A stretch of 64,000 nt of DNA from an uncultured Clostridia bacterium (GTDB lineage Bacteria; Bacillota; Clostridia; Oscillospirales; Acutalibacteraceae), in NCBI GenBank assembly GCA_947598155.1, contig CANQFC010000001.1, forward strand, positions 372,001 through 436,000, in the 5' to 3' direction. Position numbers and translations under genes: made by a program. The notes under the pieces were generated by a model. That model saw only the letters and a program-made list of their open reading frames with translations. It ran no database searches and was not told the origin of the DNA. Positions 4,940 to 63,998 of the stretch are shown here, piece after piece; the stretch's first letter is position 1, and every line of letters begins with the position of its first letter.

Positions 4940-4954
4940 GAGGTGTTATAAAGC

Positions 4955-6199: not shown

Positions 6200-6218
6200 T
6201 AATATACGGAATTTTCAC

Positions 6219-6249
6219 ACTCCTCTGATTTTTCAGGGGAGTTTTTTTT
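6219..6249 (+). terminator. Rho-independent terminator after the MacB-like permease
   Basis: The 10-bp stem ACTCCTCTGA/TCAGGGGAGT (one G-U pair) has a TTTT loop and is followed by TTTTTTT. It begins 20 bases after the permease stop. Confidence 0.9.
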
Positions 6250-6651: not shown

Positions 6652-6680
6652 TTGCCATTTTATCCCATTTATGGTAAAAT
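6652..6680 (+). promoter_or_regulatory. Promoter of spo0A
   Basis: TTGCCA (6652-6657) and TAAAAT (6675-6680) are spaced by 17 bases. The spo0A ATG follows 53 bases later with a GGAGG ribosome site at 6722. This looks like vegetative sigma-A. Confidence 0.7.
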
Positions 6681-6733
6681 ATGGAAGAAATAAAGAAGCC
6701 GAGTCAGGCTTTTAAAAATACGGAGGAAAAAAT

Positions 6734-7492: not shown

Positions 7493-7506
7493 TAAAATTA
7501 AATATA

Positions 7507-7545
7507 AAAAACGGCACACAGAAATGTATGCCGTTTTTGCTGTTT
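7507..7545. terminator. Bidirectional terminator between spo0A and the nitroreductase gene
   Basis: The stem AAAAACGGCA/TGCCGTTTTT at 7507-7538 has additional ACA/TGT pairing inside. A flank and T flank serve both strands. It sits exactly between two convergent genes. Confidence 0.88.
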
Positions 7546-7564
7546 TTATAGCTTTTAATTTTAT

Positions 7565-8233: not shown

Positions 8234-8237
8234 AATT

Positions 8238-8519
8238 TCAGCCCCTTTCCTCTGAAAGATATTCCTCAAGTTTTTTGTCAATTTCTTTCCACTCGCTGTC
8301 TGACGTAATTGCGGTAAAGGTTATATCCTCGTCGTTGATGTATTCCTCCACTGCGGAGGCAAACACGCTCATATTTCCGTCTTTATCGGTTGAACCGTCC
8401 GTATAAACAATATATACCTTGCCGCTTAATTCGCTTTCAAAAGAAAAAAGTAATTGACATTCAATATCCTTTCCGTCACTACCCTGAACGGTAAAAATTC
8501 CGTCAGTGCTTTCGTACAT
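8238..8519 (-). CDS. DUF1292 family protein
   Basis: The product is a small acidic protein of 93 residues. The ATG at 8519 is chosen over a GTG at 8528 because AGAGGTG sits six bases before it. The pattern (short strand, GSDGKDIECQLLFSFE, KVYIVYTDGS, acidic C-terminus with EEYLSE) fits DUF1292 proteins. These are common in Firmicutes and have no established function. It is the first gene of a two-gene minus-strand unit with its own promoter at 8539-8567; the nitroreductase start follows its stop by five bases. Confidence 0.7.
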   Translation of the reverse strand: MYESTDGIFTVQGSDGKDIECQLLFSFESELSGKVYIVYTDGSTDKDGNMSVFASAVEEYINDEDITFTAITSDSEWKEIDKKLEEYLSEERG

Positions 8520-48171: not shown

Positions 48172-48984
48172 TTAATTGCTACTCAATAAAAGTTTGTTTA
48201 TGTATTCCGAATCTAAATTATCTTTGAGTATTGATTTAATCCAATCTTTTTGCGAGTCTTGTAATTGTTCTGATAATTCGTTTTTTACTTCTTGAGCAAC
48301 TATGAGTATACGGTTTAATGGAATTGCTAATACGGCATATTCAGGAAGAAAACAATACTTGTCCTTCTCATCAACCAAGTATGTAAGTGTTTTTTTGATT
48401 CCGAATTTAGTTATATCCTCTATTATGTCATCCCAAATATCAATTGTTTCAGGATCGTGAAATACACCATCTTTGTAATTAACAATTTCTCTGCAATTTT
48501 TTAGCCAAAAATAAGCATTCATATTTTCTAATGTATTACTACAGAAGAAATCGGTTCGCTGAAACAAATCGACATATGTGTGTATAGTTCCACCGTGGTC
48601 TGTCATTTCTTTTGGTTTATCATATTGTTCTCCTAGAGCAATTTTGAATTTATACAAATGTTTGTTTGCTCTTACTAAAACAATATTTCTACAAAGAAGA
48701 GACGATCGTAAGCCAAAATAAACTGAATAATAAAGTTTTATAGTTGCCCAAGTATAATTTTTACTAGAAAATGCATCTAAACCTTCAGAAAAAGATAACA
48801 ATGATTTGTAATAAAAACTAAGAATATCGTCTTTTCGTGCATTGCAATACAAAGAAATATCCGAGGGATCTACTGTTGTTTTATTGATGGTTTTTCCGGA
48901 GTTGAAATCATGAAATGGAATTCCACTTGCTCCGGTAAATCTATTTCTGAAGATCTCTTGGCATTTTGCTGTATTAAAAGTCAT
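48172..48984 (-). CDS. Hypothetical helical protein at the end of the defence operon
   Basis: The product has 270 residues from ATG 48984 (GTG 48996 is possible). It overlaps the end of the DGQHR gene, which indicates translational coupling. A helical central part, FYYKSLLSFSEGLDAFSSKNYTWATIKLYYSVYFGLRSSLL (about residues 58-98), resembles HEPN-like helical bundles, but the RxxxxH RNase motif is not seen. I do not recognise the family. As the last gene of the operon it may be a target-cleaving or accessory effector. Confidence 0.65.
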   Translation of the reverse strand: MTFNTAKCQEIFRNRFTGASGIPFHDFNSGKTINKTTVDPSDISLYCNARKDDILSFYYKSLLSFSEGLDAFSSKNYTWATIKLYYSVYFGLRSSLLCRNIVLVRANKHLYKFKIALGEQYDKPKEMTDHGGTIHTYVDLFQRTDFFCSNTLENMNAYFWLKNCREIVNYKDGVFHDPETIDIWDDIIEDITKFGIKKTLTYLVDEKDKYCFLPEYAVLAIPLNRILIVAQEVKNELSEQLQDSQKDWIKSILKDNLDSEYINKLLLSSN

Positions 48985-50278
48985 AATCAGATTCACCCGG
49001 AGTCTCGGAAATGAACGCTTCCTTCAAATTATCGATAACACGTTTTCTCGCAGTTCGACCGTCCGTTGTTTCAATGCTTTTGGGAGTGATCAACTCAACA
49101 TCTGAAAAATCAAACATTTTTACAATCACTTCTTGTTTAAAACTTCTTTGAGCAACGCATTTAGGCAAAACATTTTCCATAAAGAATTCAATTGCTCCAA
49201 TAAACCCTGCTGCCTTATAAAAAATATTAGAAGAAATTGTACTCCATTTTGATACCTTATCTGCATGATATTTCAATGCATTAAAGTAGTTTTGTAGTAC
49301 TGATGCTTGTAAATTCAGACTAGTAACATTCTTTTCTTCAAGTTTACCATCGTGATCAACATATGATTTTAATGCATTAACAACAGTAGATAAATCCAAC
49401 TTGCCTTTTCCTCTGGGTGTACCCGGATATTTGATAACATTGTAAAACGGAGAGTTTACATCTTCGTTTAAAATGCGTGCAATATCTTCAGCTCGATTAA
49501 TAGCGAAATTGCGGTCCTCATCAGTAACACCATACAAATCATAAATCAAACTTTTAGGAACGGGTTTTTGTTCGGAATTGATATTCAAGAAAATCTTAGC
49601 AGCATCTTTGGTTTCCAAATTAATAGCAAGTGAGACAATGATTGTTTTATTCGCTAAATCAGGATTTTCTGTCATGGCGACCTTAATGCCCTCTAAACGA
49701 TGTTGTCCGTCAATCAACTGTGCTGCACCGTAAAGTATTGGCAATTCTATTTCCGCTTCAGTTATAATAGGTAAACTTTTAGTGTATGTCCAGTTAATGA
49801 CAAAAGTGTTCACAAACAAATTATCATCGAGAACATAATTTTTTATGGACATAATTCGCTGACGATTTAAAACACGTTGTACAGCGCCTTCTTCAGTATC
49901 TTTTCCTCGTACAGCCACATAACTGATATTTGCCAAATCTTTAACACTCATTATAAGAGTATAGATGGGTATTCCATTTATCTCTGTGGAAATATATTTG
50001 TACTTTTTGTTTTCATCCATAACCTGACCTCGCCTATATTTCAACAAAAAGACTTCAGTTCCATCTTTTTGCTCGGAGATAAAAGCTTTTTTATCGGAAG
50101 CAAAACTAATGGTTTTGTCCTCGCAGTACCGCATTATTTGAATCCGCAAAGCATCAAGCGGTTTTTTTGCACCAAATTCATAATAATTATTCTCTATAAT
50201 TTTATTATAAATTTGCTGAAGAGTTAGTCCTTCATCTTCGTTTTCTAAAACCTTTATTACAGCATCCGTTATAGTCAT
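48974..50278 (-). CDS. DGQHR-domain protein (DndB-like) with N-terminal HARE-HTH domain
   Basis: Residues 1-80 match a HARE-HTH domain (TITDAVIKVLENEDEGLTL, YEFGAKKPLDALRIQIMRY), a fold proposed to read modified DNA. Residues 95-430 are a ParB/DGQHR domain with GAAQLIDGQHRLEG (DGQHR at 190-194), as in DndB, the regulator of phosphorothioation. The ribosome site GAGGAG precedes ATG 50278. DndB represses or modulates the Dnd genes in known systems; a DGQHR protein can also serve as restriction subunit. The fusion with HARE-HTH is notable. Confidence 0.8.
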   Translation of the reverse strand: MTITDAVIKVLENEDEGLTLQQIYNKIIENNYYEFGAKKPLDALRIQIMRYCEDKTISFASDKKAFISEQKDGTEVFLLKYRRGQVMDENKKYKYISTEINGIPIYTLIMSVKDLANISYVAVRGKDTEEGAVQRVLNRQRIMSIKNYVLDDNLFVNTFVINWTYTKSLPIITEAEIELPILYGAAQLIDGQHRLEGIKVAMTENPDLANKTIIVSLAINLETKDAAKIFLNINSEQKPVPKSLIYDLYGVTDEDRNFAINRAEDIARILNEDVNSPFYNVIKYPGTPRGKGKLDLSTVVNALKSYVDHDGKLEEKNVTSLNLQASVLQNYFNALKYHADKVSKWSTISSNIFYKAAGFIGAIEFFMENVLPKCVAQRSFKQEVIVKMFDFSDVELITPKSIETTDGRTARKRVIDNLKEAFISETPGESDYDF

Positions 50279-50332
50279 TATTATCTCCTCTTTATAAATA
50301 AATATTATTTGAATTATCAGGAAATGCTCAGA

Positions 50333-50815
50333 TTATACGATCAATTCACTATTGAAAGAGTCTACTATCTCATAAATCTTTGCAAGGTAATCATCCTTGG
50401 TTGTTGTTCCTTCTGTAAATTGCTCATACAGCCACTCGATTCCGCCTCGAACATAGGAGTTAAATAACTCCATATTTTCAGGGGTGTCAGGCGATTTAAA
50501 TGTGCGATTAATTTTTTCATCAGCATTTAAGCCTGTACTATTATCAACAAGCATAGCAATCCTAAAAATAAATGTTAAATTGTCCTGTTCTTTAAGAACT
50601 GTATCAACGTGGATTTTGGCTTTATCGGGACTATTATCCGCTTCTCTACGAAGGCCAAAGTTCAAACCAACAATGGCGGCAGTCAGATAAACATCAATGT
50701 CTCTTTTGAAAACTCCAGCAACTTTTTCGCTTTTGTCGTTTTTTTCTGTTTTTTCACTTAAAAATTTAAGCCATGATGCGTATTTTCCTCTGACATAAAT
50801 ATCGCTAGTAAACAT
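50333..50815 (-). CDS. Small Dnd-associated-type protein
   Basis: The product has 160 residues, and its start overlaps the stop of the SMC-like gene by one base (TGATG). The segment FKRDIDVYLTAAIVGLNFGLRRE (residues 37-59) resembles the central helix of small proteins linked to dnd loci. The C-terminal FNSYVRGGIEWLYEQFTEG is an acidic amphipathic region. Its role is unknown. Its fixed place directly after the ATPase suggests a subunit of that complex, comparable in position to DndE but not clearly homologous. Confidence 0.6.
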   Translation of the reverse strand: MFTSDIYVRGKYASWLKFLSEKTEKNDKSEKVAGVFKRDIDVYLTAAIVGLNFGLRREADNSPDKAKIHVDTVLKEQDNLTFIFRIAMLVDNSTGLNADEKINRTFKSPDTPENMELFNSYVRGGIEWLYEQFTEGTTTKDDYLAKIYEIVDSFNSELIV

Positions 50816-52803
50816 CAGCCGTTCCTCCTTATTGAAGATTTGATTTCAGAATGCTTTTCTATTTGATACAACATACCAACCTTGTTATTCATATTGGACT
50901 GCGCATATTCCCAGTCTTTGTTCATCACAACAAGAATTACCTGTTCTGCTACTTGCGGCAGTACTTTTGAGATATTTGCGATATGCTTATCATCGGCATT
51001 TGAAAAAGGTGCATCCATTACAATGGGATATGGTTCGCTTGAATATTGAATGCCTTCCAACTCATTACCTTTGGTTTGTGCTTTTTTTCGGGCAAGATCT
51101 ACTATACCAGCAATGAACGCAAAATTTTTAACTGTGTCCAAACCGGGTGAAGTATCGTTTACGAAGATGCCCTTGCCATTATCAACTTTTAACGTGATAT
51201 GGTAGTTATCATCTATCTCTACCGTTCTTTGACCGTGATACATTTGTGAGAACAAATCGTTTATGCTTGTATAAAGATCTTCTTTTACATCTTTTTCAGA
51301 CTTGTCATAACTCTGCTTAAACCATTCGTATATTTTTGTGGCATAAGCAATATATGAATTGATTTTTTTATTCTTTTCGGTTGCGACTTGCAGTCCGTTA
51401 ATAGTAGATTCCAAAGATTGAATTTGATTCTTATTCTCACCGATAGATGAGGAAATGTTTACAAGCAACATTCTCTTTTCCTTCAGTTGTTTTTCGTTTT
51501 CAACATTATCTCGTTCAAATTTACCAACATCAACATTGCCTTGTAACAAGCGGCTCAACTCGGCGAGCTGACTTCTTTTATCGTCTATTTGATTAGCGTT
51601 TTCTCGCATTCTGATGTAATCGCTTTTAACGACTTCGGCATAATCTTCTACTTCGGTTTCAGCTCTCTGACAGTCACGCTTAAACTCTCTTATTTCTGTT
51701 CCGATATGCTGAGGGGGCAAAAGACTTTGTTCATAACGAATGTTATTTACTGCACCCTGATTCAAAGTTAAATCAGCACCGCAAATACACTTTCCTCTTT
51801 TCAAAATAAATTCAATAGAGTCTGAGTGCATTTTAGGTATACCTTCTCCGTCTTGTTTAGCATCAGCGATAACCTTATACACTTTTGCATAGAGTGATTT
51901 TGCAAAGAACTTATACGAATCTTTTGTAAAGTCCCGTACGATTTGACGTTCTACAGTTTCTTGGTTACCTTGAAGATAATTTAAATCTCTTTCAATACGA
52001 ATTTTTTCTTCTTGACGAGCTTTGGTAGCTGCATTTGCTAGTATTTTGGCATCTAACTCTTTTTTTCGTTCTTCGAAGTAATTGATTTCATTTTCAACCT
52101 GAGTTTTTCTTTGTTCAAGTGATTGTAGCTTTTCTTTGGCAGTAGACAAGCTGACTTTCAACTGCGCATCTTTTTGGTCTTGTCCGATATCAAGTTCTTT
52201 ATGTAACTTACTGATTACTGAGTTTGCTTTTTGGGGATCAAAATGGTCTACAGCTTCGCTTATGGTTTCTAATCCCATTAATCCTCTAACAGCAGATACA
52301 ACATTTCCTTTGTTATTAATATCTGCTATATGTTCGCCATCGAAAAAGAAATATCCGGACAGGGCTTCAGGTAAAATTTTATCTACAGTGTTTTGAGCCT
52401 CAATCGAAGGAATCTCTTGCATTTCACCATTTGCCTCTTGATACTCAACTTTCAGAGTCGGTCTGGCGAAAGTTGGTGCTCGATTAGCTTCGTTTTTTGT
52501 TACCGTTTGTGTTCGTCTAATTACATAAAGACGTTCTTCGTGTTGTAGTTCTACCTCAACAGAGACTTCGTTCGTTGAATATAGTCCCATTTCCTGGAGA
52601 GATTCTGAATTGATCAATTCTCGTGTTTTAAAAGATGTTAATCCATAAAGACACCAGTTAAAGGCTTGAATTAATGTTGTTTTTCCGCTAGTGTTGTCTC
52701 CGAGGATTACCGTAACATTTTTCTCTTTATCACAAGAAAATTCGACAACTTGCTTTTCTTTGTATTGTCTAAAATTAGACAAAGTAATCTGCTTAATTAA
52801 CAT
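50815..52803 (-). CDS. SMC/Rad50-like ATPase, DndD-type
   Basis: The 662-residue protein opens MLIKQITLSNFRQYKEKQVV with Walker A GDNTSGKTT at 35-43. A long coiled coil is split by a zinc-hook-like GKCICGADL near 338. The C-terminal half has the signature region SPGLDTVKNFAFIAGIVDLARKK and Walker B PIVMDAPFSNAD. DndD proteins of phosphorothioation systems are ATPases of this class and may open or nick DNA. The gene is coupled to its neighbours by overlaps on both sides, so it is cotranslated with the helicase unit. Confidence 0.85.
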   Translation of the reverse strand: MLIKQITLSNFRQYKEKQVVEFSCDKEKNVTVILGDNTSGKTTLIQAFNWCLYGLTSFKTRELINSESLQEMGLYSTNEVSVEVELQHEERLYVIRRTQTVTKNEANRAPTFARPTLKVEYQEANGEMQEIPSIEAQNTVDKILPEALSGYFFFDGEHIADINNKGNVVSAVRGLMGLETISEAVDHFDPQKANSVISKLHKELDIGQDQKDAQLKVSLSTAKEKLQSLEQRKTQVENEINYFEERKKELDAKILANAATKARQEEKIRIERDLNYLQGNQETVERQIVRDFTKDSYKFFAKSLYAKVYKVIADAKQDGEGIPKMHSDSIEFILKRGKCICGADLTLNQGAVNNIRYEQSLLPPQHIGTEIREFKRDCQRAETEVEDYAEVVKSDYIRMRENANQIDDKRSQLAELSRLLQGNVDVGKFERDNVENEKQLKEKRMLLVNISSSIGENKNQIQSLESTINGLQVATEKNKKINSYIAYATKIYEWFKQSYDKSEKDVKEDLYTSINDLFSQMYHGQRTVEIDDNYHITLKVDNGKGIFVNDTSPGLDTVKNFAFIAGIVDLARKKAQTKGNELEGIQYSSEPYPIVMDAPFSNADDKHIANISKVLPQVAEQVILVVMNKDWEYAQSNMNNKVGMLYQIEKHSEIKSSIRRNG

Positions 52804-52966
52804 TGTCTACCTCCTGCGAAATAAGTTTAATAATTTTTTCTACAACTTCATTATCCTTGAGCTTTTTGGTTTTGTAGTTTTCTCTTTCAAGAAGATAAAT
52901 ACGAAGTTGTAACTTTTTTAGTTTTTCTTCATCTAAAACAATTTGATCTTGAGGATTAAATTCCAT
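52793..52966 (-). CDS. Small coiled-coil protein between helicase and SMC genes
   Basis: A 57-residue frame from ATG 52966 to a TAA at 52793. It overlaps the helicase end (11 bp) and the SMC-like start (11 bp), a typical coupled chain. The ribosome site CGGAGGTAAC precedes the ATG. It is Lys, Glu and Leu rich (LDEEKLKKLQLRIYLLERE, KIIKLISQEV), predicted as a single helix with a heptad pattern. It could bridge the helicase and the ATPase. No known family is recognised. Confidence 0.75.
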   Translation of the reverse strand: MEFNPQDQIVLDEEKLKKLQLRIYLLERENYKTKKLKDNEVVEKIIKLISQEVDNVN

Positions 52967-55112
52967 AATCGTTACCTCCGATATAATTCAACTGATAATA
53001 CTCATTGATTTCGTCTATCAATTTATACGATTCTGAAGGATTCTCGCATAAACGAACAAAGTCATCTAATCGTTCTTTTTCTCTTTTAAAAAGAGTAAGT
53101 TCATAATCACGATTTGTAGATGGCGCCTGTGAGCCTAATGGTCTTGGCAATGTTATAAAGTCATATATGACAGCATAATCTTTTCCATCTGCTTTTCTTA
53201 ACACTCTTCCTCGGCGCTGAACATACTCTTTAGGGTTAGTGCTACTTGCCAGAATAAATGCTGTTCGTATTCCGGGAATGTTTACACCTTCGTCTAAACA
53301 TTTAATTGCAACCAAAGCCTGGAGCATTTTACCTTCGGCGAAACTATCTTTTATGCGCTCTCGTTCTTGGGGATCTTCATTTGAAGTGAACATAGAGACA
53401 CGCATTTTAAGCTGGTTTCCTAAAATATCTACGACCTTCTCAATTTGCCTTATTTCTTCACTGGTATCATCTGACGAGTCAGATGATACCTTTGTGGCAC
53501 CACAATATACCAATATGTTGTTATCGTTCTTATATGGCTCTATTACCGCCTTTAATGCAGAAAGTTTGTTTCTTGCTCCGGCAATAATTCGAGCTCTTTT
53601 GATTAGCAACATCTCTGCAGATTTTGGTAGATCATAATCTCGATTTTTGCGTAAGATATTGACAACTTTTTCTGTGATTTCGATATATTCTTCCAACTCA
53701 TCTTCATCAAGCGATACAACGATCGGATGGTAATAATAAGGCGTTAAAAATCCTTGATGTATCGCATCATCTAAGGTAAATGTAATACATTTTTGTCCGA
53801 AATAATTATAAAGGCTATTTGTACCTTCTTCATCGTGATGTCTTTCTAAAGTCGCCGATAATGCTAATCGATATTTGAAGTTCGGCAACATACAAAGTTG
53901 TAATCTCTTTGAACCAAAGTTATGTGCTTCATCTACAACTAAACAAAGATTTCCTTTTACCGAACTTAAAATTTCTTGAACATATGGCATAGAGTATGAT
54001 GCATTAACCATTATTGCACAGAAATTTTTTACAACGCCTAATTTGAAATCGGAAACAAGCATTTTAAATTTCTTTTTCCAATCGTATTTGGAATAGCATA
54101 CTAACGGAGTTACATTGAACTTGTTTATGTCATCAATCCATTGCTCAACAAGATGTTGGTAGGGACAAAGAATAATAACACCTAACTGATCATCAAGTTT
54201 TTCTGATAGTTTAGACAAAGCCCCTAATGCCGTATATGTTTTTCCTGCACCAGTAGCCATATCAAATATGCCAATTGAACCAGAGTCAATCCATTTATTA
54301 ATTGCCTCTAATTGGTAGGGGTGGTCATCGAAACTAACACTTCCTGGAACTCTAAAAAAAACATTTTTAGGAATGATAGTACTTGGCTGTTGAGGTTTAC
54401 TAATAAGCTCCTCGTGGTCTACAGTCTTATCAATAACATCTCGTTTATAAGTTAATAGTTTGTTGATTGCCACTTGAGGAAAATCAATTATTGTTACTTC
54501 AGAATCGGCATTAGTCCATAATAGATGAAATGCGAATTCTTTTTGTTCCACTTTTTTAGCCTCAAAATCCGATTGCCAAGAACAATATACATCCATAACT
54601 TCATAGTTGGAGATAAATGCATTTTCCGTCTCGTTTGTTGATCCCGAAAAAGCGATAACATTATTTTCGGAATCGTACATCAAGCCCATCTTTTCGTGAT
54701 AGATTCCCAATTGGTTTTGATCTTCTGTAAATGCGACTTTTATATCAAGTCTATCGCTAGCAATTAGAGTTGCTAACATATTCAATCGTTCACTATCAAA
54801 ATAACTTGTTGGTTCTTTGAACTCACGCATTAAAGCATTATTTATTATTTCTTCTCTTCTATCATACCCTGTTTTTATTGCATAAATGTCCTCCTTAGAT
54901 AAACGTGGAGAAACAATTAGTTGAATTTTGCCGCCGTTAGAAACCAGCTCGGAAATACCTCTTGCTATTTGAATCAAAGCTGTAGAAGAAAAGAAACCTA
55001 CTGCACGTTGATACTTTACGGCATGGGATAGTACCGGTATATAGAAATCACCGATAACATTGCTTTTACCTGAGCGATATTCGGTTTTAATTTCAATATC
55101 TTTAAATGACAT
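52956..55112 (-). CDS. PLD-nuclease/SF2 helicase, phosphorothioation-linked restriction enzyme type
   Basis: The 718-residue protein has an N-terminal phospholipase-D-type nuclease domain (VGFFSSTALIQIARGI; the motif IYHEKMGLMYDSENNV with H139/K141, then SGSTNETENAF) and an SF2 helicase. The latter has motif I ATGAGKT at 286-292, DEAH at about 388, SATLERH and the C-terminal QRRGRVLRKADG. Helicases of this layout accompany phosphorothioation loci as restriction enzymes that would attack unmodified DNA. ATG 55112 has AAGGAG upstream. Confidence 0.83.
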   Translation of the reverse strand: MSFKDIEIKTEYRSGKSNVIGDFYIPVLSHAVKYQRAVGFFSSTALIQIARGISELVSNGGKIQLIVSPRLSKEDIYAIKTGYDRREEIINNALMREFKEPTSYFDSERLNMLATLIASDRLDIKVAFTEDQNQLGIYHEKMGLMYDSENNVIAFSGSTNETENAFISNYEVMDVYCSWQSDFEAKKVEQKEFAFHLLWTNADSEVTIIDFPQVAINKLLTYKRDVIDKTVDHEELISKPQQPSTIIPKNVFFRVPGSVSFDDHPYQLEAINKWIDSGSIGIFDMATGAGKTYTALGALSKLSEKLDDQLGVIILCPYQHLVEQWIDDINKFNVTPLVCYSKYDWKKKFKMLVSDFKLGVVKNFCAIMVNASYSMPYVQEILSSVKGNLCLVVDEAHNFGSKRLQLCMLPNFKYRLALSATLERHHDEEGTNSLYNYFGQKCITFTLDDAIHQGFLTPYYYHPIVVSLDEDELEEYIEITEKVVNILRKNRDYDLPKSAEMLLIKRARIIAGARNKLSALKAVIEPYKNDNNILVYCGATKVSSDSSDDTSEEIRQIEKVVDILGNQLKMRVSMFTSNEDPQERERIKDSFAEGKMLQALVAIKCLDEGVNIPGIRTAFILASSTNPKEYVQRRGRVLRKADGKDYAVIYDFITLPRPLGSQAPSTNRDYELTLFKREKERLDDFVRLCENPSESYKLIDEINEYYQLNYIGGNDYGI

Positions 55113-55113
55113 T

Positions 55114-56256
55114 TTATAAACTCCTTAAAGATTCTATCAAGCAATCTATATCGTTTTCCGTGTTAAAGTATCCTAAACTCACACGTACAGTACCCCGTGT
55201 ACTTTTTGTGTCAATAAGTTCGTGAATAAACGGCGCACAATGAAAGCCTGTCCTAACCGCTATATCAAAATCTCCGCTAAGAATTGCACCTACTTCTGAT
55301 GGTTCATAGTCAGGAACGGTGAAAGAAATAACACTTGTATGCTCAACACCATCTGCTGGGGTATACAGAACAACTGGAAGGCTTTTCAATCCTTCGATTA
55401 AATGATTCATTAAGTGCTTCTTTTTCTTTGCTATAGTATCTATTCCAATTTCTTTCAACCATTTCAAAGAGGCGTTCAGACTAGCAATTGCAATTATATT
55501 GGGACTTCCAAATTCAAAGCTTGATGGATAAGAATCACCCATTGAAAGATTCAAAGAGTCCGAACCGGTTCCACCGGCAAAAGCATTAATCAGTCGATGG
55601 GGACTATTTTTTATAAAACCGCCAATTCCCCAAGAGGCATATAAATTTTTATGGCCTGCAAATATTAAATAATCGAATTTGGATTTTTGAAGATTGTACT
55701 CAAGTAACCCGACAGATTGAGATCCATCAACAATAACAGTTGCGTCATATACTTTTGAAGAAGATGTAATAATATCAACTGGTAAAACTGCGCCGGTAAC
55801 ATTACTAATATGGTTGATAAAAACGTAATCGGGAGGATTGAGCGCAAAGTCCTGTTCCATTTGCTCAAAATCCAACTTTTGAGTAACACCATCAAAAGGC
55901 AATTGTAGCAATGTGATATTGTATCTTTGTTTGATTATTTCTAGTGGTCTTGCAATTGCGTTGTGCTCAAAAGGCGAAACATATACTACCTTGTATTCAT
56001 CCCATTCTAAGCCCATAATAATTTGGTTTGCTGCAATAGTTGCAGATGGGGCAAAAATGATATTATTTGGATTGGTTGCATTTAATAACTCGGCCATTAA
56101 AAATCGAGTTTCATCAACTATTTTCATCGCATCATTTGCGGCTTGATAGCTTCCTCTGCCCACATTGACAGCTAAATTGCGCTGAATGTGGTCAACCATA
56201 GAGTAAACATCTTCTGGTTTTGGGAAAGTGGTTGCAGCATTATCCAAATAAATCAT
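55114..56256 (-). CDS. Cysteine desulfurase, DndA/SspA-type (class V aminotransferase)
   Basis: The 380-residue PLP enzyme starts MIYLDNAATTFPKPEDVYS. It has the Schiff-base Lys in FAGHKNLYA (near 204) and the sulfur-carrying Cys in RTGFHCAP (near 345); VDGSQSVG holds the PLP Asp. It should take sulfur from cysteine and pass it to the PP-loop enzyme encoded upstream. Housekeeping NifS/IscS could be confused with it, but its place inside the defence operon (one base from the helicase gene) fixes its role. The SspC-like ATPase gene ends 11 bases upstream. Confidence 0.85.
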   Translation of the reverse strand: MIYLDNAATTFPKPEDVYSMVDHIQRNLAVNVGRGSYQAANDAMKIVDETRFLMAELLNATNPNNIIFAPSATIAANQIIMGLEWDEYKVVYVSPFEHNAIARPLEIIKQRYNITLLQLPFDGVTQKLDFEQMEQDFALNPPDYVFINHISNVTGAVLPVDIITSSSKVYDATVIVDGSQSVGLLEYNLQKSKFDYLIFAGHKNLYASWGIGGFIKNSPHRLINAFAGGTGSDSLNLSMGDSYPSSFEFGSPNIIAIASLNASLKWLKEIGIDTIAKKKKHLMNHLIEGLKSLPVVLYTPADGVEHTSVISFTVPDYEPSEVGAILSGDFDIAVRTGFHCAPFIHELIDTKSTRGTVRVSLGYFNTENDIDCLIESLRSL

Positions 56257-56267
56257 TTTTAGGCTCC

Positions 56268-59200
56268 TTAATGTATAATTTCTTCGATAAGTTTTGCTAA
56301 AATAGCCAACTGCTCATCGGGTTCTAACGCATCGTTATATTCGTCAAAAACTGAACGCAAATTACTTAAAGCCGTTTTGCCCAAAGGCGATATTTCATCT
56401 GAGGTAAAGGTTTTTTCGTGAACGCCTCCACCCAACTGAATAGATAATCTAAACTTGTTAGATGCATTAGTGCTTTCTTTGTATTCAGAAATACGTTGAA
56501 TTGATTCGCTAATAGATGACATAAAGCTGTCAGAGACAGAATCGTTCCAATCAGCAAGCTGAATTGAGGTGAAAGCGTTAATCAAATCATCAATCAACGC
56601 ATCGTCATTGTAAGAGGTAACATCTTTTACTATAGATAGCAAAAGATTCGAATTACTATCAAACATATGGCTTTTTGTGTATTCAGGTAGTTTTTTATAC
56701 CAGGTTATTGCAGCATTAGATAAGCTACCTTGATACCCTGGATTAAAAAGTTCAGTTAATTTTAACCCCAACTCTCTTTTGCAGACTGCCAAGTGTGAGT
56801 CAAGCATTTCTTTTGCTAATTGAATACTTTTTATGCTTTCGCTATAGTTGTTGTTTCCAATGCCTGATACAAAAGTCTGAAATAGAAGTTCTCTAGCATT
56901 AATTTCAAACTTTAACAACTCTGTTCTGATAATCAATGTCTGCTTATCTAAATCTACGTATTCTCCATTTACAAAGTGCTTCTTGCATTTTTTTGAGTAT
57001 TCAGGCAGACTTCTTATCCAATTCTGCATTGATTTAATTACAGAGTATGATTTGTTTACGCTCGAATCCTTAATGTCCGAATGCTGTTCGAACAATTTTT
57101 CAAGCGTATTTAAATATTTTTCTTTTTCTTGAGTCCCGGTTTCAATAAGCAAATAATAATTCTCGGGATTCTCATTCAAACTATTGAGAATAGAAGAGGA
57201 AAGTTCTACTTCTTTGTCCTTGAAATATAGAACTATATTGCTTTTATATTGTCTCAGAACATATGCTAAAAAAAGCGGGATTAAGCCATTGCGAATGCCA
57301 TAGGGAGGTGCGGAAAGTGTTTGATAGAGTCCTGAGAAATTTACTCTTTTCTTTTCACAACCAGTTATAAACCCCTTAATGAAATCTAGCACAGAAGTAA
57401 TACCATTATCAGATACATTTGCGGATTTGTATAACCCTGTGCGTTTAAACGCAGAATTGAAAATACTAACTTCAGGACCATAGCCACTTATGGCGGGAAT
57501 TTCATTTTTGTCAGAATTTTCGAGTATCCAAGCAACTACAATATCTCTGCCCTTCATATTCTGAGAATTAAGAACTCTTTTGTTTACCATTTCATTGTTA
57601 ATCACCGGAGTCAAATGATAAAGTTGTCCACAAATTTCAGAAAGTTCTCTGCTAAGCGACATATTGTTCGTGATTTCAATTTGCCCGTTACAATTATAAA
57701 ATTCACTTTGTTTGCTTGAGTAGCCAAAAAGATCGTCTATAACGGTTCTGATCCTGTGTTTGTTATCTTCTTCAAATATTTCGAGTTCCCGTAAATAGTC
57801 AGAATCAGATTTGTTTTCTTCTTTAAGTTGTGAAATGGCAACCGATCTCTTTAGCAAATCGTAAGATGCAAAAGGAAGTTTTGAAACGCATATTACGATA
57901 TTCGGAGTTTCTTTAAATGTCTCTATTTTTTCTAAAACAGCTTCTCTTTTGGAATTATCGTAATCTAAGATATTAATGATGAGACCATCACACGGATATT
58001 CTAAAAGAAGTTGTTTTGCGTTTTTAAGCTCAATAAATGTAGTTGATTCCATATATATCTTTTTGAAATATCGAAACATACTAAATTTATCATTGTATTC
58101 TCTAGGTGTTGCAAAACCAAGATTATAGTTCTTTTCAAGAATATCACAGCATTTGAATTTGATGTTTTTACTCTTAATATGATTTTCTATTGCTGTGTTA
58201 ACACTTACTCCGTTATCAGTTAGTAGAACATATTCAAGTGTTTCTCTTTGGTTGATAATTTGATTTTTAAGCAAACCATTAATAGCTTTTTCAAAAGATT
58301 TATCATCTATCATTAAACAAGCTTTAATGTGAACAGGGATGGGCTTCAACTTATCATCTGCAATTATGTTTATTATAGCTATAGCCTTTAGTATCTTAAT
58401 CTGATCTTCGCTTGTCGCTTTTTTGATTGCGGCATAAGTTTTTGCCCAAGAATTATGGACTCTATTATTGAAGATTTCTTTTTTGAATAATTCTTCAAAA
58501 TAGTTATAGATATAGTCCACCGTAATAAATTCAAATGACTTCCGTTCGGTTTCTGCAAAGGAGTTCAATGTATACTCTTCATTTTGGGACAAGAAGGTAA
58601 ACAACGTGCGTTCGTTTTGCCCAACTATTTCACTAACACGAAGGAGAGCGTAAGCACTCATCGGTGCCAATGGGAAACAGCCGTATACGATTTTATTCTT
58701 GTATGCATCATCACTCAATTCATTGAATACACCAACCGTTGAATAGCAATTGATTGCGCACTGAAAAGCCCCATCATTTTCTTGAGAAAAAGTGGAGAAA
58801 GAAGACTTTTTAATGATTGCATTTGCGATTAATTCATAGCTTTGTTCCGAGGAAGCGACAAATCTAATCTTTTTAAATCTACCTTCGACTGTTTTAAAAC
58901 TATCGCTTGAAGAGTAATCAAGTATGTCTTTGTGGGTGACACAAGTAAAATGTATCTGTGTTTTTCCGCTTCTTGTTGCGGCTTCTGCCATATCTTGAAT
59001 AATCTTGAAATTAAGCATTTTGCTCTTATCAAGATTTGCTTCAAGGAATTTGCTAAATTCGTCAAAAATGATATTGATTCCACAGTAAGGAGTTTGTTCT
59101 TGAAGTGCATTTGCAATTGCAATATACATCTTTACAACATCCATATTAGTCAGCGGATTGAATTCAGTTCCGGCAGCAATATTAGGATATATTGAGCAAA

Positions 59201-59846
59201 AAAGTTCATAGGATGTACGATTGAATTGCTTTAATCCTATGCAAAGATCTTCAATGTTACTTTTTGTTTTCTTAAGTTCAATTTGCAAAGTCTTATATGC
59301 TTGCGGAAAAGAAATACGCCATTTCTCGATAATTGCTAAAGCGGAATCAAAATACGTAGAAGGCAACAATTGTTGTAGATTGGCTTTATACAAGGCATCT
59401 TTAATAGCCAACATAAATGCTTGATTTATGTCAGTAGAGTTGCTGTTAACTATTACAGGCAAAGTTCGTATTTTGGAATCTACTATCGTTTTCGATAATG
59501 CTCCGACTTCTTTATCAATATCACTAATTTTATTGCAAACTTCATTAAGCACAGTTAAACCAAATTGGTTTTCCTCTTCATTAATTGAAGCTAAGTCCAA
59601 AGAAGTAAGCGCTGTCAAAAGCAATAATAAATGAGATTTTCCTCTTCCGTACGGACCTACAAGAACAGTTGCTCTATTCTGCGGTTCATTACTGTAATAA
59701 AAAGAGCGCAGAAAATCGCCGAGAATTTTCACAGATTGCTCGGTAGGAATATAGGATTTTATTTTTTCGATTTTATTTAAGTCATATTCGAGATTTATTG
59801 AGGCTTGAAAGCCTTCTTTTATTCCTAAATAGTCTGAATACTTCAT
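56268..59846 (-). CDS. Large P-loop ATPase, SspC/BrxC-like
   Basis: The protein has about 1192 residues from ATG 59846 (AGAGG upstream; TTG 59849 also in frame). Walker A is GPYGRGKS near residues 65-72, and Walker B is probably NIIFDEFSKFL near 255. The middle and C-terminal regions are long and helical, without clear motifs. The P-loop resembles BrxC/PglY of BREX. Large ATPases next to DUF4007 and PP-loop genes are the SspC position of SspABCD systems. No PglZ, PglX or BrxL is present, so BREX is excluded. Confidence 0.75.
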   Translation of the reverse strand: MKYSDYLGIKEGFQASINLEYDLNKIEKIKSYIPTEQSVKILGDFLRSFYYSNEPQNRATVLVGPYGRGKSHLLLLLTALTSLDLASINEEENQFGLTVLNEVCNKISDIDKEVGALSKTIVDSKIRTLPVIVNSNSTDINQAFMLAIKDALYKANLQQLLPSTYFDSALAIIEKWRISFPQAYKTLQIELKKTKSNIEDLCIGLKQFNRTSYELFCSIYPNIAAGTEFNPLTNMDVVKMYIAIANALQEQTPYCGINIIFDEFSKFLEANLDKSKMLNFKIIQDMAEAATRSGKTQIHFTCVTHKDILDYSSSDSFKTVEGRFKKIRFVASSEQSYELIANAIIKKSSFSTFSQENDGAFQCAINCYSTVGVFNELSDDAYKNKIVYGCFPLAPMSAYALLRVSEIVGQNERTLFTFLSQNEEYTLNSFAETERKSFEFITVDYIYNYFEELFKKEIFNNRVHNSWAKTYAAIKKATSEDQIKILKAIAIINIIADDKLKPIPVHIKACLMIDDKSFEKAINGLLKNQIINQRETLEYVLLTDNGVSVNTAIENHIKSKNIKFKCCDILEKNYNLGFATPREYNDKFSMFRYFKKIYMESTTFIELKNAKQLLLEYPCDGLIINILDYDNSKREAVLEKIETFKETPNIVICVSKLPFASYDLLKRSVAISQLKEENKSDSDYLRELEIFEEDNKHRIRTVIDDLFGYSSKQSEFYNCNGQIEITNNMSLSRELSEICGQLYHLTPVINNEMVNKRVLNSQNMKGRDIVVAWILENSDKNEIPAISGYGPEVSIFNSAFKRTGLYKSANVSDNGITSVLDFIKGFITGCEKKRVNFSGLYQTLSAPPYGIRNGLIPLFLAYVLRQYKSNIVLYFKDKEVELSSSILNSLNENPENYYLLIETGTQEKEKYLNTLEKLFEQHSDIKDSSVNKSYSVIKSMQNWIRSLPEYSKKCKKHFVNGEYVDLDKQTLIIRTELLKFEINARELLFQTFVSGIGNNNYSESIKSIQLAKEMLDSHLAVCKRELGLKLTELFNPGYQGSLSNAAITWYKKLPEYTKSHMFDSNSNLLLSIVKDVTSYNDDALIDDLINAFTSIQLADWNDSVSDSFMSSISESIQRISEYKESTNASNKFRLSIQLGGGVHEKTFTSDEISPLGKTALSNLRSVFDEYNDALEPDEQLAILAKLIEEIIH

Positions 59847-59851
59847 CAATA

Positions 59852-60757
59852 TTACCTCTCTTGCGATTTCTCGTAATATTCTCTCATAATATCTACAACG
59901 GATTTTTGAGTATTAACATAAACCATATCCAATCCAGCAGTTCTGTTTATGGTTATTAAATCAATTGCTCTTAATTGATCTAAATATTCATTTATCATAG
60001 AGCGGTTGAGATTGAATACTCGACCGATATTATTTGGAGCTTTCCATAGTTCATCAATGCTGACAGAATTTTTATCTGCAGATAAATTTTGCTTTATCAC
60101 ATAAAGAATGGCGTATTTATTTAATACCTCTTTGGAGGGGGTACATTTATCATAATTACCCCTATTGTTTTTCTTGATAAGACCAAGTTCAGATAATGGA
60201 GATCCCAAATTATCTTCCGGATCGCCATTATGATCGGTTTCTTGATACATACGGATAATACTCGCACAATCATCACGTAATGAATTGGACGAATACGCAA
60301 CACCTTGTATCAATCGTTTTTTTAAATATTCTTCACACGTTTCGTACATATTGTCTCGTGTGAAGTTTTCTCCTTCATATTCATTGAAGAATATATTCCA
60401 CATCGTACACAATTCGTGTTTGTTAGAAACTATATGATAATGAATTAAAGACAAAGTGAAAATATCATCAAAATAAGGATCGTACTGCTCGATAATTCTT
60501 CCGAAATCTTCAGTTATAAATTGTTGTCTAGCACGATTTCCGCCTTGGTTTTGTTCTTCGCAAAGATTAGTGGCTTGCAACCAATAACGAATCGACTTAA
60601 CCATTTTACTACCAACGCCCAATATCTCCATAACATCTGATCGTGAAAATAGATCAGGATAATCGTTAATACTTCTCATCCCTTTTCGAAGCCATCCTTC
60701 ACGGATATTAAAAGACTCATTTCCTTTGAGTTTAACTTTTTTTAAGTAATTAGTCAT
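59852..60757 (-). CDS. DUF4007 family protein, SspB position
   Basis: The 301-residue protein starts at ATG 60757, overlapping the stop of the PP-loop gene by 8 bp; the longer frame to 60793 has no ribosome site. It shows the DUF4007 signature GNESFNIREGWLRKGM and MEILGVGSKMVKSIRYWLQAT, and a C-terminal winged-helix-like part (NNIGRVFNLNRSMINEYLDQLRAI). DUF4007 genes stand beside PP-loop genes in phosphorothioation loci, and SspB is described as a DNA nickase acting in single-strand modification. The link between DUF4007 and SspB is from memory. Confidence 0.75.
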   Translation of the reverse strand: MTNYLKKVKLKGNESFNIREGWLRKGMRSINDYPDLFSRSDVMEILGVGSKMVKSIRYWLQATNLCEEQNQGGNRARQQFITEDFGRIIEQYDPYFDDIFTLSLIHYHIVSNKHELCTMWNIFFNEYEGENFTRDNMYETCEEYLKKRLIQGVAYSSNSLRDDCASIIRMYQETDHNGDPEDNLGSPLSELGLIKKNNRGNYDKCTPSKEVLNKYAILYVIKQNLSADKNSVSIDELWKAPNNIGRVFNLNRSMINEYLDQLRAIDLITINRTAGLDMVYVNTQKSVVDIMREYYEKSQER

Positions 60758-62495
60758 TTTCAGAATATCCCTTTCCTCTTGGTAATAATACACGACGCAT
60801 ATAACAGCCGCCGGTATAATGATTTATACAATCAAAACAATGAACACACTTGTTTTCATCAATTTCATAACGATAATCGCAATCTGATTCACCATTTTTA
60901 ATTAGTTTGATAGCATTGTGTTTGCAAGCATTTTCACAAGCGTGACATCCTGCACATAATTGATATTTCGTAATTTGGCATTTAAACTTCAATTCTATTT
61001 CGGCTATCTTTGTTCTATTAGCTATGGGGGTATTTAAAATAGAAATCTTCAATTCATTTGTTCCCAGTCGTCCTTGGAGTTTGATGATTGGAAGTTTGGT
61101 CTTAAAATCTAATACGTATACTTCCCCAAGTCTCGATTTACCCATATCAAAATTCAAAAAACCAAAGGGTTTAAAAAACTCATAAAGTTGTTCGGCTATT
61201 GGCTTATTCAGAACGTAATTGAAACTTTTTGAATCTGTAGCACACGGCTTAAAGTTGATTGCAACATTCTTGCTTAGTTCTATACCAGCACCGCCTTGTC
61301 GAGCCTTCCATCCTCCGTTAATAACATACTCAGCAGGATCGTCTTTTCCCATTTTGACAGCAAATCTATATAGGATATCATAAAACTTTTCGTACAACTC
61401 GGGCATATACACACTGGCGAGAAATTGCGACCATTGGCTGTTGTTTGGACAACACCAACAGCCAACCCTTGTATAGCCTAATCTATATGCATCGTTAAAA
61501 TCAATTTTTGTGCATAAAATATATAGCCAAATGTCGTAATCAATCCAATCGATAATAGGAGAAGCTACAAGTTGCTTACTAATTTTCTCTCCTTCAGATG
61601 AACGCTCGTATTTACTTCTACTGGTAGATTCGCTTCTTCTGATGCCATAAAATGTTAAAACCTTTTTTCTGTCCGCAAAAGTGCTTTTAATCTTCTCACC
61701 AATAAATCCTGTTTTGAAAATAGTACAACACCAACGAAGTGTGCGGCTTGGCGGACCAAATGTTTCACAAAGATTAAAAAAGTCTTGTTCTTTATTTTCG
61801 GCACGAAGCATAGGAGTTTTTCTGTTTTCAGCCCTAAACCTTGCAACATAATCATAGGTGTGAGGAAACTCCAACGTGGTATTACCAAAAATGTGAATGA
61901 TAGATGGATTTGCCAACGCTTTGCGCACCAAATCACTGACAACGGTTGAATCTTTTCCTCCCGAAAAAGAAACGAATGCTGCATTTGTTTCATCGTTCAA
62001 ATATTTTGACGATAGTTCATTAATATACTGCTTTGCTTCAGTTGTAATAAATTCAAAGTGTGCCTTATTCGCAGCAACCCACTTTTCTATATAAGCGTTA
62101 AAGGGATCATAGGAATTAAGCCCTGTATATTTTTCGATCTCCTGACGGACAGCATTTGGATCAAATTCTTTAACTTTTGAAATTTTGAGAGGTATTTTTT
62201 TGCCATTAACATAGTATCTATTGCCAGTACCGTTCCATACAGAGTCATTTATAAATGCAAGTGGTTTGTCCAAAATAATTTCCAATAACAATCTTTCTTC
62301 AGGAAATACCGGACGAGCGTCAGAAGTAAAATATTCACAGTTATTTTGGCATAAAGGGCACACCGAATCATATGTAGGAACATTACAGTTACTACACCAA
62401 AACAATTCGCTTTTAACTTCTGTTCGCTCACCACAAACCGGGCATTCGCTGTGGCTTACATCTATATCACATTTATTGCAATGATAATTTATCAT
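60750..62495 (-). CDS. PAPS-reductase-like PP-loop protein with zinc ribbons and two-cluster ferredoxin tail (SspD/DndC-like)
   Basis: The 581 residues hold two N-terminal zinc ribbons (CNKC/CPVC near 6-21 and CSNC/CPLC near 34-49), then a PP-loop SFSGGKDS at 176-183 for AMP transfer. RWCC near 256 and GCWCC near 346 form a likely [4Fe-4S] site as in DndC. The C-terminal ferredoxin has CAGCHACENAC near 514 and CVHCFDCINHYTGGC near 550. It would activate the backbone phosphate for sulfur insertion. GGAGAT precedes ATG 62495. A weak promoter (TTCAAT-N17-TATATT) may lie in the 121-base gap upstream. Confidence 0.85.
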   Translation of the reverse strand: MINYHCNKCDIDVSHSECPVCGERTEVKSELFWCSNCNVPTYDSVCPLCQNNCEYFTSDARPVFPEERLLLEIILDKPLAFINDSVWNGTGNRYYVNGKKIPLKISKVKEFDPNAVRQEIEKYTGLNSYDPFNAYIEKWVAANKAHFEFITTEAKQYINELSSKYLNDETNAAFVSFSGGKDSTVVSDLVRKALANPSIIHIFGNTTLEFPHTYDYVARFRAENRKTPMLRAENKEQDFFNLCETFGPPSRTLRWCCTIFKTGFIGEKIKSTFADRKKVLTFYGIRRSESTSRSKYERSSEGEKISKQLVASPIIDWIDYDIWLYILCTKIDFNDAYRLGYTRVGCWCCPNNSQWSQFLASVYMPELYEKFYDILYRFAVKMGKDDPAEYVINGGWKARQGGAGIELSKNVAINFKPCATDSKSFNYVLNKPIAEQLYEFFKPFGFLNFDMGKSRLGEVYVLDFKTKLPIIKLQGRLGTNELKISILNTPIANRTKIAEIELKFKCQITKYQLCAGCHACENACKHNAIKLIKNGESDCDYRYEIDENKCVHCFDCINHYTGGCYMRRVLLPRGKGYSEND

Positions 62496-62616: not shown

Positions 62617-63522
62617 TTATTCCTCGGTATTATAAAACTCATCTAACACATAAGTCTTAACCGGTGTGATGTACAGTTCGTATCGTATAACCAGTCTTAC
62701 TAATTCGTTGCCGTCAATTAAGGTAATAGGGGAGCCTTCTCTTGCAGCAATTCTTGCAGCATTTGTAAATCTACCGTTTGTGATAAATACACCATAGTCT
62801 GCTTGATACTTATTCATAGCGCCTAAAAACTGGTTGATTTCCGGCTCGGACACGGGTACAACATTATATCGTTTGCATTGAATGACTACTCTTGTTGTTC
62901 TGAAATCATTAGCATCAATGTGGTAGCCATATCCGTCGATTCCACCGTCATTGCTGATCTGAACGCCTCTTTCGGTGAATTCAACGCCCATTCGGTTTAA
63001 TAATGCTCTTGAAAAAACTTCAAACTTTTTGGGTGACATTTTGGCAATAGAGGCAAGCAGATTTTCCTTGAAATCATCCTTGATTTTTTCTTCGCCGTGT
63101 GTTTCTTCTTCGTTATCGCTGATATCAACAACTTTATTTTTCTTGTTGCTTTTGCTTAGATTTTCCCAATGTTTCTTGGAAGTTTCGATAATCTCTTTTT
63201 GAACATCAAGGTTGTCAACATCAAGATACAAACCTTTTTCCGTCAAAGTAATCGGGGATAAATCGGTGTATGTCAAGAGGCCATTAAAAAGCAAATCTTT
63301 GATAGCAAAGTTGAATTTGTAATTAAACTCTTTATATGTGTTGCCGGTTTGTTTCGATTTCTTTTCAAGCACAGAGTATTCAGCAATTTGGTCATCCATA
63401 TCTGCAATGCGTTCTTTGATTTCAGAACGCTCTAATTGACCGCCTGCCTCTTGCAATACCTTTAATATGGGTTTAATCAAATATGCAATTTTACCTTCCG
63501 AAGATAATGATTTTAAGATCAT
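62617..63522 (-). CDS. Mrr-type restriction endonuclease
   Basis: The 301-residue protein has an Mrr N-terminal winged helix (AYLIKPILKVLQEAGGQLERSEI, about residues 12-34). The Mrr catalytic domain shows MGVEFTERGVQISNDGGIDGYGY near 185-207, then VVIQCKRYN near 218 (the D...QxK active site), and NGRFTNAARIAAREGSPITLIDG. Mrr-type nucleases cut modified or methylated DNA in other bacteria. ATG 63522 with AGAGGTG is preferred over GTG 63531. It lies upstream of the Ssp-like genes with a 121-base gap, so it may be a separate unit. Confidence 0.85.
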   Translation of the reverse strand: MILKSLSSEGKIAYLIKPILKVLQEAGGQLERSEIKERIADMDDQIAEYSVLEKKSKQTGNTYKEFNYKFNFAIKDLLFNGLLTYTDLSPITLTEKGLYLDVDNLDVQKEIIETSKKHWENLSKSNKKNKVVDISDNEEETHGEEKIKDDFKENLLASIAKMSPKKFEVFSRALLNRMGVEFTERGVQISNDGGIDGYGYHIDANDFRTTRVVIQCKRYNVVPVSEPEINQFLGAMNKYQADYGVFITNGRFTNAARIAAREGSPITLIDGNELVRLVIRYELYITPVKTYVLDEFYNTEE

Positions 63523-63536
63523 TTTTAACACCTCTT

Positions 63537-63998
63537 TTACAATTCTTCCGTCTTAAAGGTCGTATAACCCTCGTAGTAGTAGCTGTGGTCAATGCCTTTC
63601 ATATAGATTTCACGGCTGTTTATTTCGTCTGTAAGCGCACCTTTCAGCAACGCTTTGATTTCCACATCTTTAATCGGGCTGCGTTCCATTGCGAGTAGGT
63701 AATCTTCCTTATCAACCTTGCTCCAGTCGACAACCTTGCCGATTTCATTTTTCAATATATGGTCAATCCAAATGCGGGTACTGCGTCCGTTACCTTCCCT
63801 AAAAGGGTGGGCAATGTTCATCTCAACATATTTTTCTACTATCTCATCAAAGTTCGACTGCGGCATTTTGTCGATGTTATCAAGCGCCGCCTGCAAGTAC
63901 ATTACAGGCGCAAAACGGAAATTGCCCTTTGCAATATTGACTGTTCTGAGTTCACCCGCGAAGTCGTAAATATCTTCAAATAGGAACTTGTGGATTGC
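63537..63998 (-). CDS. Fic-domain protein, C-terminal part (start outside window)
   Basis: The frame is open to the window edge. It contains [19 protein letters not shown] and the catalytic Fic motif HPFREGNGR, so its N-terminus is beyond base 64000. Fic proteins transfer AMP from ATP to target proteins and act as toxins or regulators. The C-terminal part ([21 protein letters not shown]) is typical for Fic proteins of restriction islands. The stop lies 14 bases before the Mrr start, so the two form one unit. Confidence 0.88.

Follow-up and report, generated by a model that had tools for sequence, protein, structure and literature searches.

The window analysed here is a 64,000-nucleotide stretch of the genome of an uncultured Clostridia bacterium (contig CANQFC010000001.1, positions 372,001 to 436,000, of the assembly GCA_947598155.1, which comprises 2.1 Mb in 33 contigs), and at 48172–62495 on its minus strand lies a candidate phosphorothioate (PT) defence operon of ten coupled genes. 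All ten open reading frames that an earlier note, made from the sequence alone, had described were found at their place and on their strand. In order of transcription they encode a long SspD/BrxP-like protein, SspB (DUF4007), SspC, a cysteine desulfurase, PbeA, a protein of 57 amino acids (aa), PbeC, a 160-aa protein, a HARE-HTH/DGQHR protein and a 274-aa protein, and the successive junctions, from 62495 down to 48172, are a 44-bp overlap, gaps of 2, 11 and 1 bp, overlaps of 11, 11 and 1 bp, a 54-bp gap and a 23-bp overlap. Scans of the ten proteins against Pfam (PF), PADLOC and NCBIfam (TIGR) models, a check proposed in the earlier note, gave strong curated-family matches for seven of them, far beyond chance (PAPS_reduct, E 1.2e-31; DUF4007, 2e-80; SspC, 1.7e-117; Aminotran_5, 9.5e-72; PbeA, 6.9e-244; PbeC, 2.1e-115; DGQHR, 3.2e-35), with the 160-aa protein as a weak eighth and no convincing match for the 57-aa and 274-aa proteins. 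A promoter and terminator scan of the operon was judged to be of no use because promoter-like sites were no commoner than in shuffled sequence (56 versus 60.2).

The first four genes make up a complete Ssp writer set, consistent with the Ssp-like core of a phosphorothioation-type operon previously proposed for this locus. The PP-loop sulfurtransferase (60750–62495, minus strand, as for all genes below) matches PF01507, with a weak Fer4 match, and combines N-terminal Zn-ribbon-like cysteines, an SGGKDS loop, a GCWCC motif and C-terminal ferredoxin-like cysteines. It had been placed in the SspD position, and its identity as a PP-loop writer stands; its form, which the earlier note had not recognised, is closer to that of BREX type 4 than to short SspD, as evidenced by PADLOC scores of 286 bits for BrxP against 50 for SspD and 46 for DndC. 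It is 581 aa long, compared with 266–305 aa for the short forms. SspB (59852–60793; PF13182, 270 bits) also matches the solved SspB structure 6JUF (E 7.8e-16), DUF4007 having been described as a tripartite winged-helix DNA-binding module. SspC (56268–59849) is a BrxC-related ATPase (PADLOC SspC 392 bits, BrxC 112 bits), and the desulfurase in the SspA position (55114–56256) scores 242 bits against PF00266 and 368 bits against TIGR01977, just missing the cut-off of 377. Catalytic motifs are intact across the aligned loci: SGGKDS is kept in 16/16 SspD sequences, Walker A and Walker B of SspC in 17/17, and the desulfurase catalytic cysteine in 14/14, while the ferredoxin cysteines are missing in L058 (loci are numbered L, genomes G), the sole short SspD in the aligned set. 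By these sequence criteria the writer is of the long Ssp/BREX-4 form.

Two other identities for these genes must be weighed at this point. The PAPS-reductase Pfam match might suggest that the PP-loop and desulfurase genes serve sulfur metabolism or tRNA thiolation rather than a DNA-sulfur system. A deep tree of the PP-loop families was set aside, as its long branches meet, and the order of BLAST scores was used instead: other long writers come first, followed by fused BrxP (179–184 bits), short SspD (46–56 bits), DndC (44 bits) and, as the weakest relative compared, Escherichia coli CysH (32 bits). The ECGLH motif of CysH is missing from the window protein, and the gene shares an operon with SspB, SspC and the Pbe genes. 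We therefore rejected a metabolic PAPS reductase, a grouping that by the earlier note would have refuted its proposal, and consider a metabolic role extremely improbable. The second candidate is BREX type 4 (brxPCZL) in a degenerate or derived form. As described in the sections of PMC12839542 drawn on here (all papers are cited in this sense), BREX type 4 has SspB/C/D homologues, PglZ in all analysed taxa and a PAPS reductase with an extra domain and a ferredoxin-type region, the latter also seen in some SspD; 255 of 457 taxa have a desulfurase. The window shares with it the BrxP-like PP-loop protein, DUF4007, BrxC/SspC and the desulfurase, and in locus L077 PglZ and BrxL accompany a related writer that is unfused. 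In the window, however, the BrxP-like protein and DUF4007 are separate genes, a Pbe arm takes the place of PglZ and BrxL (neither of which was matched among the ten proteins by PADLOC, the rest of the genome not having been searched for BrxL), and the identity of the PP-loop protein with fused BrxP is 28%, versus 43–76% with the 11 other long writers compared. PF08665 found no PglZ in the host genome, although this model also missed the type-4 PglZ of L082 and L083, which PADLOC recognises. The only DndC match in the genome reaches 38.7 bits against a cut-off of 290.4 and is the SspD-like gene itself; by this cut-off a Dnd writer elsewhere in the genome was rejected. Since no PglZ match was found and the sole DndC match falls so far below its cut-off, we assign the operon to neither BREX-4, which we regard as very unlikely, nor Dnd. 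PADLOC likewise found no SspE, SspFGH or DndFGH among the ten proteins (the rest of the genome was not searched for these), in keeping with the earlier statement that the locus is neither a canonical Dnd nor an SspE locus.

The restriction arm had been called unusual; it has in fact been named already, as PbeABCD (PMC6459918). PbeA (52956–55112; PADLOC PbeA 809 bits) is a HKD (PLD) nuclease domain fused to a superfamily 2 helicase, and its HEKxxxxxD, GSxN and helicase Walker A motifs are kept in 18/18 sequences. The protein formerly described as an SMC-like ATPase is indeed an ATPase, more exactly the CxC-hook ABC ATPase PbeC (50815–52803; PADLOC PbeC 385 bits), which is related to DndD (115 bits) and thus accounts, together with the DGQHR protein, for the DndD- and DndB-like parts noticed earlier. 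Its CxC is kept in 18/18 sequences and the GK[ST] of Walker A in 17/18; Walker A is absent in L074 (a short frame of 419 aa) and its first glycine in L080. Between PbeA and PbeC, overlapping both, lies the 57-aa gene (52793–52966), assigned to PbeB by position and size as no Pfam, PADLOC or NCBIfam model gave a convincing match; its partners in L023, L070 and L084 are 59–75% identical, with weaker ones in L024 and L085. The 160-aa protein in the PbeD position (50333–50815) matches dnd_assoc_4 (TIGR04062) weakly, at E 5.1e-4, and 11/17 aligned members match this model at E 0.01 or better (best 4.3e-5). The small PbeB and PbeD of the published system are 66 and 152 aa, in agreement with the place and size of the 57- and 160-aa genes. 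With PbeA and PbeC matched strongly and small proteins in the PbeB and PbeD places, all in the published order, the arm corresponds to PbeABCD.

Compared by description rather than by sequence, DndCDEA-PbeABCD of Haloterrigena jeotgali (PMC6459918) has the same PbeA-B-C-D order, similar sizes and the same link to a PT writer, but that writer is DndCDE and not of Ssp/BREX-4 type, and the window PbeA falls in a separate clade, being 34–36% identical to PbeA of the Dnd-Pbe plasmid locus L131 and of the haloarchaeal plasmid locus L132. The haloarchaeal PbeABCD confers PT-dependent protection, impaired by deleting each of the four genes (PMC6459918), and was reinterpreted by Rakesh et al. (PMC10853773) as a HKD nuclease-helicase, a small protein, a CxC ABC ATPase and a DndE cognate. 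The CxC ABC-ATPase/DndE systems of that paper share the PbeA, PbeC and PbeD architecture and the CxC hook with the window, although they are described there with Dnd writers or methylases and not with SspB/C writers. Conversely, SspABCD with SspE or SspFGH (PMC8092258) shares SspB, SspC, a PP-loop SspD and the desulfurase, while the window differs in its Pbe arm and in its ferredoxin-bearing rather than short SspD.

The pairing of such a writer with Pbe recurs. We sampled 398 genomes of the phylum and, nearer to the host, 147 relatives and 391 genomes of the class, other phyla being hardly sampled, and called PbeA at 560 bits or more. At E 1e-30 the PbeA model matches 52/398 genomes; among the 31 set aside are G910, whose match is split in two within a single frame and which enters the tree as L126, G733 with a fragment, G761 with a remnant, and longer proteins that match only in part. 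DUF4007 occurs in 31/398 genomes and PbeA in 21/398, with both in 13; without the host's own genome there are 12 co-occurrences versus 1.5 expected (Fisher p 2.8e-10). The two genes lie 4.6–5.9 kb apart in 11 genomes including the host, that is in 10 of the 30 other DUF4007 genomes, and in G701 Pbe lies upstream, not downstream, of the writer. All 11 genomes with PbeA of at least 800 bits also have DUF4007, adjacent in ten and 36 kb off in G612. The pairing was also seen in L018, L020, L023, L024, L084 and L085, and in L058 with a short classical SspD. A scan of a genome-contig collection with SspC as single query gave only 2 loci, the collection being barely sampled.

When the remaining 30 DUF4007 loci among the phylum genomes were assigned arms by tblastn and family scans, Pbe proved the commonest (10), followed by SspFGH (6), PglZ/BrxL (3), a helicase-GHKL-PLD set (2), a Pbe remnant (1) and a GmrSD-like arm (1). 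Seven were left unassigned; five of these lie at contig ends, and L057 has its Pbe at a distance of 36 kb. The SspFGH call in L068 relies on weak matches of 50–77 bits, and the GmrSD-like call in L063 on the same PADLOC families as in L065, where Pfam sees GmrSD_N. In L080 the Pbe arm is present and SspD was not found with the queries used, and the arm of L056 lies upstream (L128). The remnant (L060, 9177–9947) is a PbeA with a stop beside a writer of four open frames, and reads as a decaying arm. Among the 147 relatives the two other DUF4007 genomes carry helicase-GHKL-PLD (G121) and SspFGH (G141); among the class genomes there are six others, two with Pbe (G204 and G427), one with SspFGH (G422), one with an SspGH-like arm (G226), one at a contig end (G388) and one in which no writer was recognised (G436).

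Phylogenies of the two modules indicate that they have travelled separately. In the PbeA tree 18 Ssp-linked sequences (17 beside an Ssp-type writer and one 36 kb away in a genome having such a writer) form one clade with support 100/99, apart from 13 others, whose loci are linked to Dnd, solitary or on plasmids. In the writer tree, by contrast, which holds 30 long or fused writers, the arm label as first assigned was scattered (14 changes versus a shuffled mean of 14.1), the Pbe label alone, with arm labels corrected, was not clustered (8 changes, mean 8.5, as low in 246/500), and a single clade of Pbe-armed writers was rejected (approximately unbiased test, p 1.2e-41, with long branches in the set). 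The window's own writer clade (support 100/100) unites three Pbe-armed and two SspFGH-armed loci, with SspD 73–76% identical to that of the window. Individual loci change partners between trees with strong support in both: L074 groups with the window by writer and with L061 by PbeA, while L018 groups with L070 by writer and the PbeA of L070 groups with the window. Pairwise distances across 14 Pbe-armed loci (13 for SspA) correlate well within the writer (r 0.79–0.95) and between PbeA and PbeC (0.85). Without L023 and L084, the window's close kin, these values are 0.69–0.94 and 0.72, and those between writer and arm are −0.12 to 0.11 (p 0.24–0.82). Judged from these trees and distances, writer and arm have separate histories and the modules recombine, and the pairing seems to have been exchanged between related bacteria.

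The best explanation, in which we have good confidence, is a two-module PT defence operon joining an Ssp/BREX-4-type writer to a Pbe restriction arm, its likely function being phosphorothioate marking with Pbe-mediated restriction and its role probably antiviral. The desulfurase would draw sulfur from cysteine, and the long SspD/BrxP-like protein would activate it and pass it to the DNA backbone at sites selected and opened by SspB and SspC; the strand and motif of the mark we infer from known systems, PT being expected on one strand by analogy with SspABCD. PbeC and PbeD, as a DndD/DndE-like pair, would scan DNA and, where the Ssp-type mark is absent, engage PbeA, whose helicase and HKD nuclease may stop replication of the incoming DNA, probably by cutting, while PbeB may tether or restrain the complex. 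The cutting step is favoured because the HKD residues are intact, as Rakesh et al. argue (PMC10853773). The same authors put forward abortive infection for CxC systems, in which PbeA would turn on the host's own DNA once the marks, or PbeB, had been removed or blocked by a virus; the small size of PbeB and the GmrSD-type proteins in the fifth slot of L065, L074 and L084 are compatible with this. The published Pbe, however, admits PT-marked virus but restricts virus without the mark, a behaviour resembling self/non-self discrimination (PMC6459918), and we think an abortive mechanism unlikely.

Several observations weigh against the two-module explanation. PbeA (TIGR04095, 504 bits, cut-off 600) and PbeD (TIGR04062, 20.2 bits, cut-off 74.25) fall under the NCBIfam cut-offs, the PbeD-position protein gave no DndE match among solved structures, its structure model was unusable as the fold was not confident, and Xiong et al. 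did not see cleavage of viral DNA by Pbe (PMC6459918). With corrected arm labels the writer tree needs 9 changes over 26 rows (the minimum being 4; shuffled labels need 10.6 on average, and no more than 9 in 12/200), a slight clustering of arms; this count omits L057, L060, L071 and L078, whose arms are unassigned, and takes L083, where PglZ and BrxL were matched, as BREX. G794 has DUF4007 with a PbeA 146 kb off that is one of the 13 rows outside the Ssp-linked clade, its Ssp writer carrying an SspFGH arm of its own. Correlation between writer and arm over the 14 loci is low, if nominally significant (r 0.25–0.43, p 0.0025–0.031), and low co-variation could mean that the arm is independent of that writer. 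In a rival reading, Pbe acts against phages on its own, without reading the PT mark, and is next to an Ssp-type writer merely because both belong to a defence island. Consistent with this are the missing co-variation outside the closest trio, the frequent occurrence of CxC/Pbe systems without Dnd writers (Rakesh et al., PMC10853773), the lack of a DndC over cut-off in 8/10 genomes whose Pbe has no adjacent Ssp writer, and the presence of other defence genes upstream of the operon. Yet the spacing between DUF4007 and PbeA is nearly constant in the 11 genomes, the window genes overlap or nearly touch, and PbeA beside Ssp writers forms a clade of its own, so that we regard a free-standing arm as quite unlikely.

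We take the slot after PbeD to be an accessory place. In 12/17 loci examined a gene starts no more than 60 bp after PbeD, and its identity varies by locus. In the window it is the HARE-HTH/DGQHR (DndB/ParB-like) gene (48974–50278; TIGR03187 122 bits, cut-off 58.85; PF14072 70.6 bits, over its cut-off; TIGR04172 80 bits, far below the cut-off of 450), with a HARE-HTH domain at its N-terminus (PF05066, 28.9 bits, cut-off 25.9) that the earlier note had missed; that note had read the DGQHR protein as part of a mixed composition, and it is present, yet not alien to Pbe, as a Dnd-Pbe locus on a Ruegeria plasmid also ends with one. Elsewhere the slot holds GmrSD-type proteins (L065, L074, L084), a PLD nuclease (L061), unassigned proteins (L018, L020, L085) or a 5'-nucleotidase of doubtful membership (L070), and a sigma-70-like gene is coupled directly behind PbeD in L024 (19904–20995), L079 (14772–15860) and L127 (16254–17354); in L058 an integrase gene comes next, after 296 bp. 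The HARE-HTH of the GmrSD-type protein in L084 (30222–32369) is 42% identical over 73 aa to the DGQHR-fused one of the window, although HARE-HTH as a general part of Pbe is unsupported, being found in 1/13 scanned genomes with adjacent Pbe, that of the window, in addition to L084. The probable task of the HARE-HTH/DGQHR protein is either to adjust marking or to read the mark. The last gene (48172–48996) overlaps it by 23 bp and encodes the 274-aa protein, which had no convincing family match and matched no phage or plasmid record (tblastn, E 0.01), no viral contig in a close-relative scan and, among 381 class genomes, only its own; its single-sequence structure model was unusable (pLDDT 33.7).

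A full writer-Pbe operon 55–78% identical to that of the window is present in L084 (MT835506.1), the closest record filed as 'Bacteriophage sp.', which we nonetheless read as bacterial DNA because the same stretch, upstream of the operon, encodes arabinose isomerase together with a sugar kinase and an ABC transporter. A phage-borne system was rejected on this ground and as viral-contig scans with PbeD and PbeA queries gave no relative, the PbeA scan, from a single protein, reaching close relatives only. Upstream of the window's operon (62617–63998; L008, 5537–14481) are genes for a Mrr-type nuclease, a Fic protein, a TIR protein and a type I specificity subunit, indicating a defence island.

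Other arms accompany the same writer type. In L005 (7971–12424), L067 (~3911–8410) and L086 (25462–29894), and on plasmid pTS1 of Treponema saccharophilum, a helicase stands together with a GHKL ATPase and a PLD nuclease; L005 and L067 have a DndB-like gene as well. This set may be a PT arm not yet described, as far as a brief literature search reaches. SspFGH arms lie in L007 (2101–17087) and in L016 (13503 onwards), in genomes G141 and G422; the arm of G141 is followed by a WYL protein and by another SspB-SspC pair that has diverged, and the large SspH-like protein of this genome also matches DndH (255 bits). The BREX-4-like arm of L077 (8495–17900) comprises PglZ and BrxL beside the unfused writer and a second SspB/SspC-like pair.

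We found no description of an Ssp/BREX-4 writer joined to PbeABCD in the literature, including the sections drawn on here of PMC6459918, PMC10853773, PMC12839542, PMC8092258, PMC7464106, PMC12707154 and PMC11931770; a mention elsewhere is possible. A survey of 2,678 sspBCD writers reported 196 with SspFGH, 199 with SspE and 36 more with both, which leaves most of them partnerless, and the word 'pbe' is absent from its main text (PMC8092258). PMC7464106 gives counts of strains with PT genes and pbeA-D from dnd and ssp queries; strain-level co-occurrence may be in its data, the operon not being described. Of 553 PbeAC, 320 lacked dndCD nearby, and 155 of those were near methylase genes (PMC6459918). 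The split of Ssp-linked PbeA from the remainder agrees with the finding that SspFGH toxicity is cured by foreign SspBCD and not by DndBCDE (PMC8092258), and what arms recognise may hence be a class of mark, not a single partner. In a broader model, which stands at even chances in our judgement, the common PT mark of Ssp/BREX-4 writers would act as a shared socket on which at least four arms can be exchanged (PbeABCD, SspFGH, PglZ-BrxL and helicase-GHKL-PLD), the mark being read by a dedicated Pbe subfamily, with some 'orphan' SspBCD writers and 'solitary' Pbe arms being partners and the fifth gene rapidly exchanged. The pairing could account for part of the partnerless sspBCD and of the PbeAC without dndCD. 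It also opens a direct test of whether arms read a writer class, through the Ssp-type mark, or one cognate writer, for which nature has provided a swap experiment in the window's clade, whose close writers bear Pbe in some loci and SspFGH in others.

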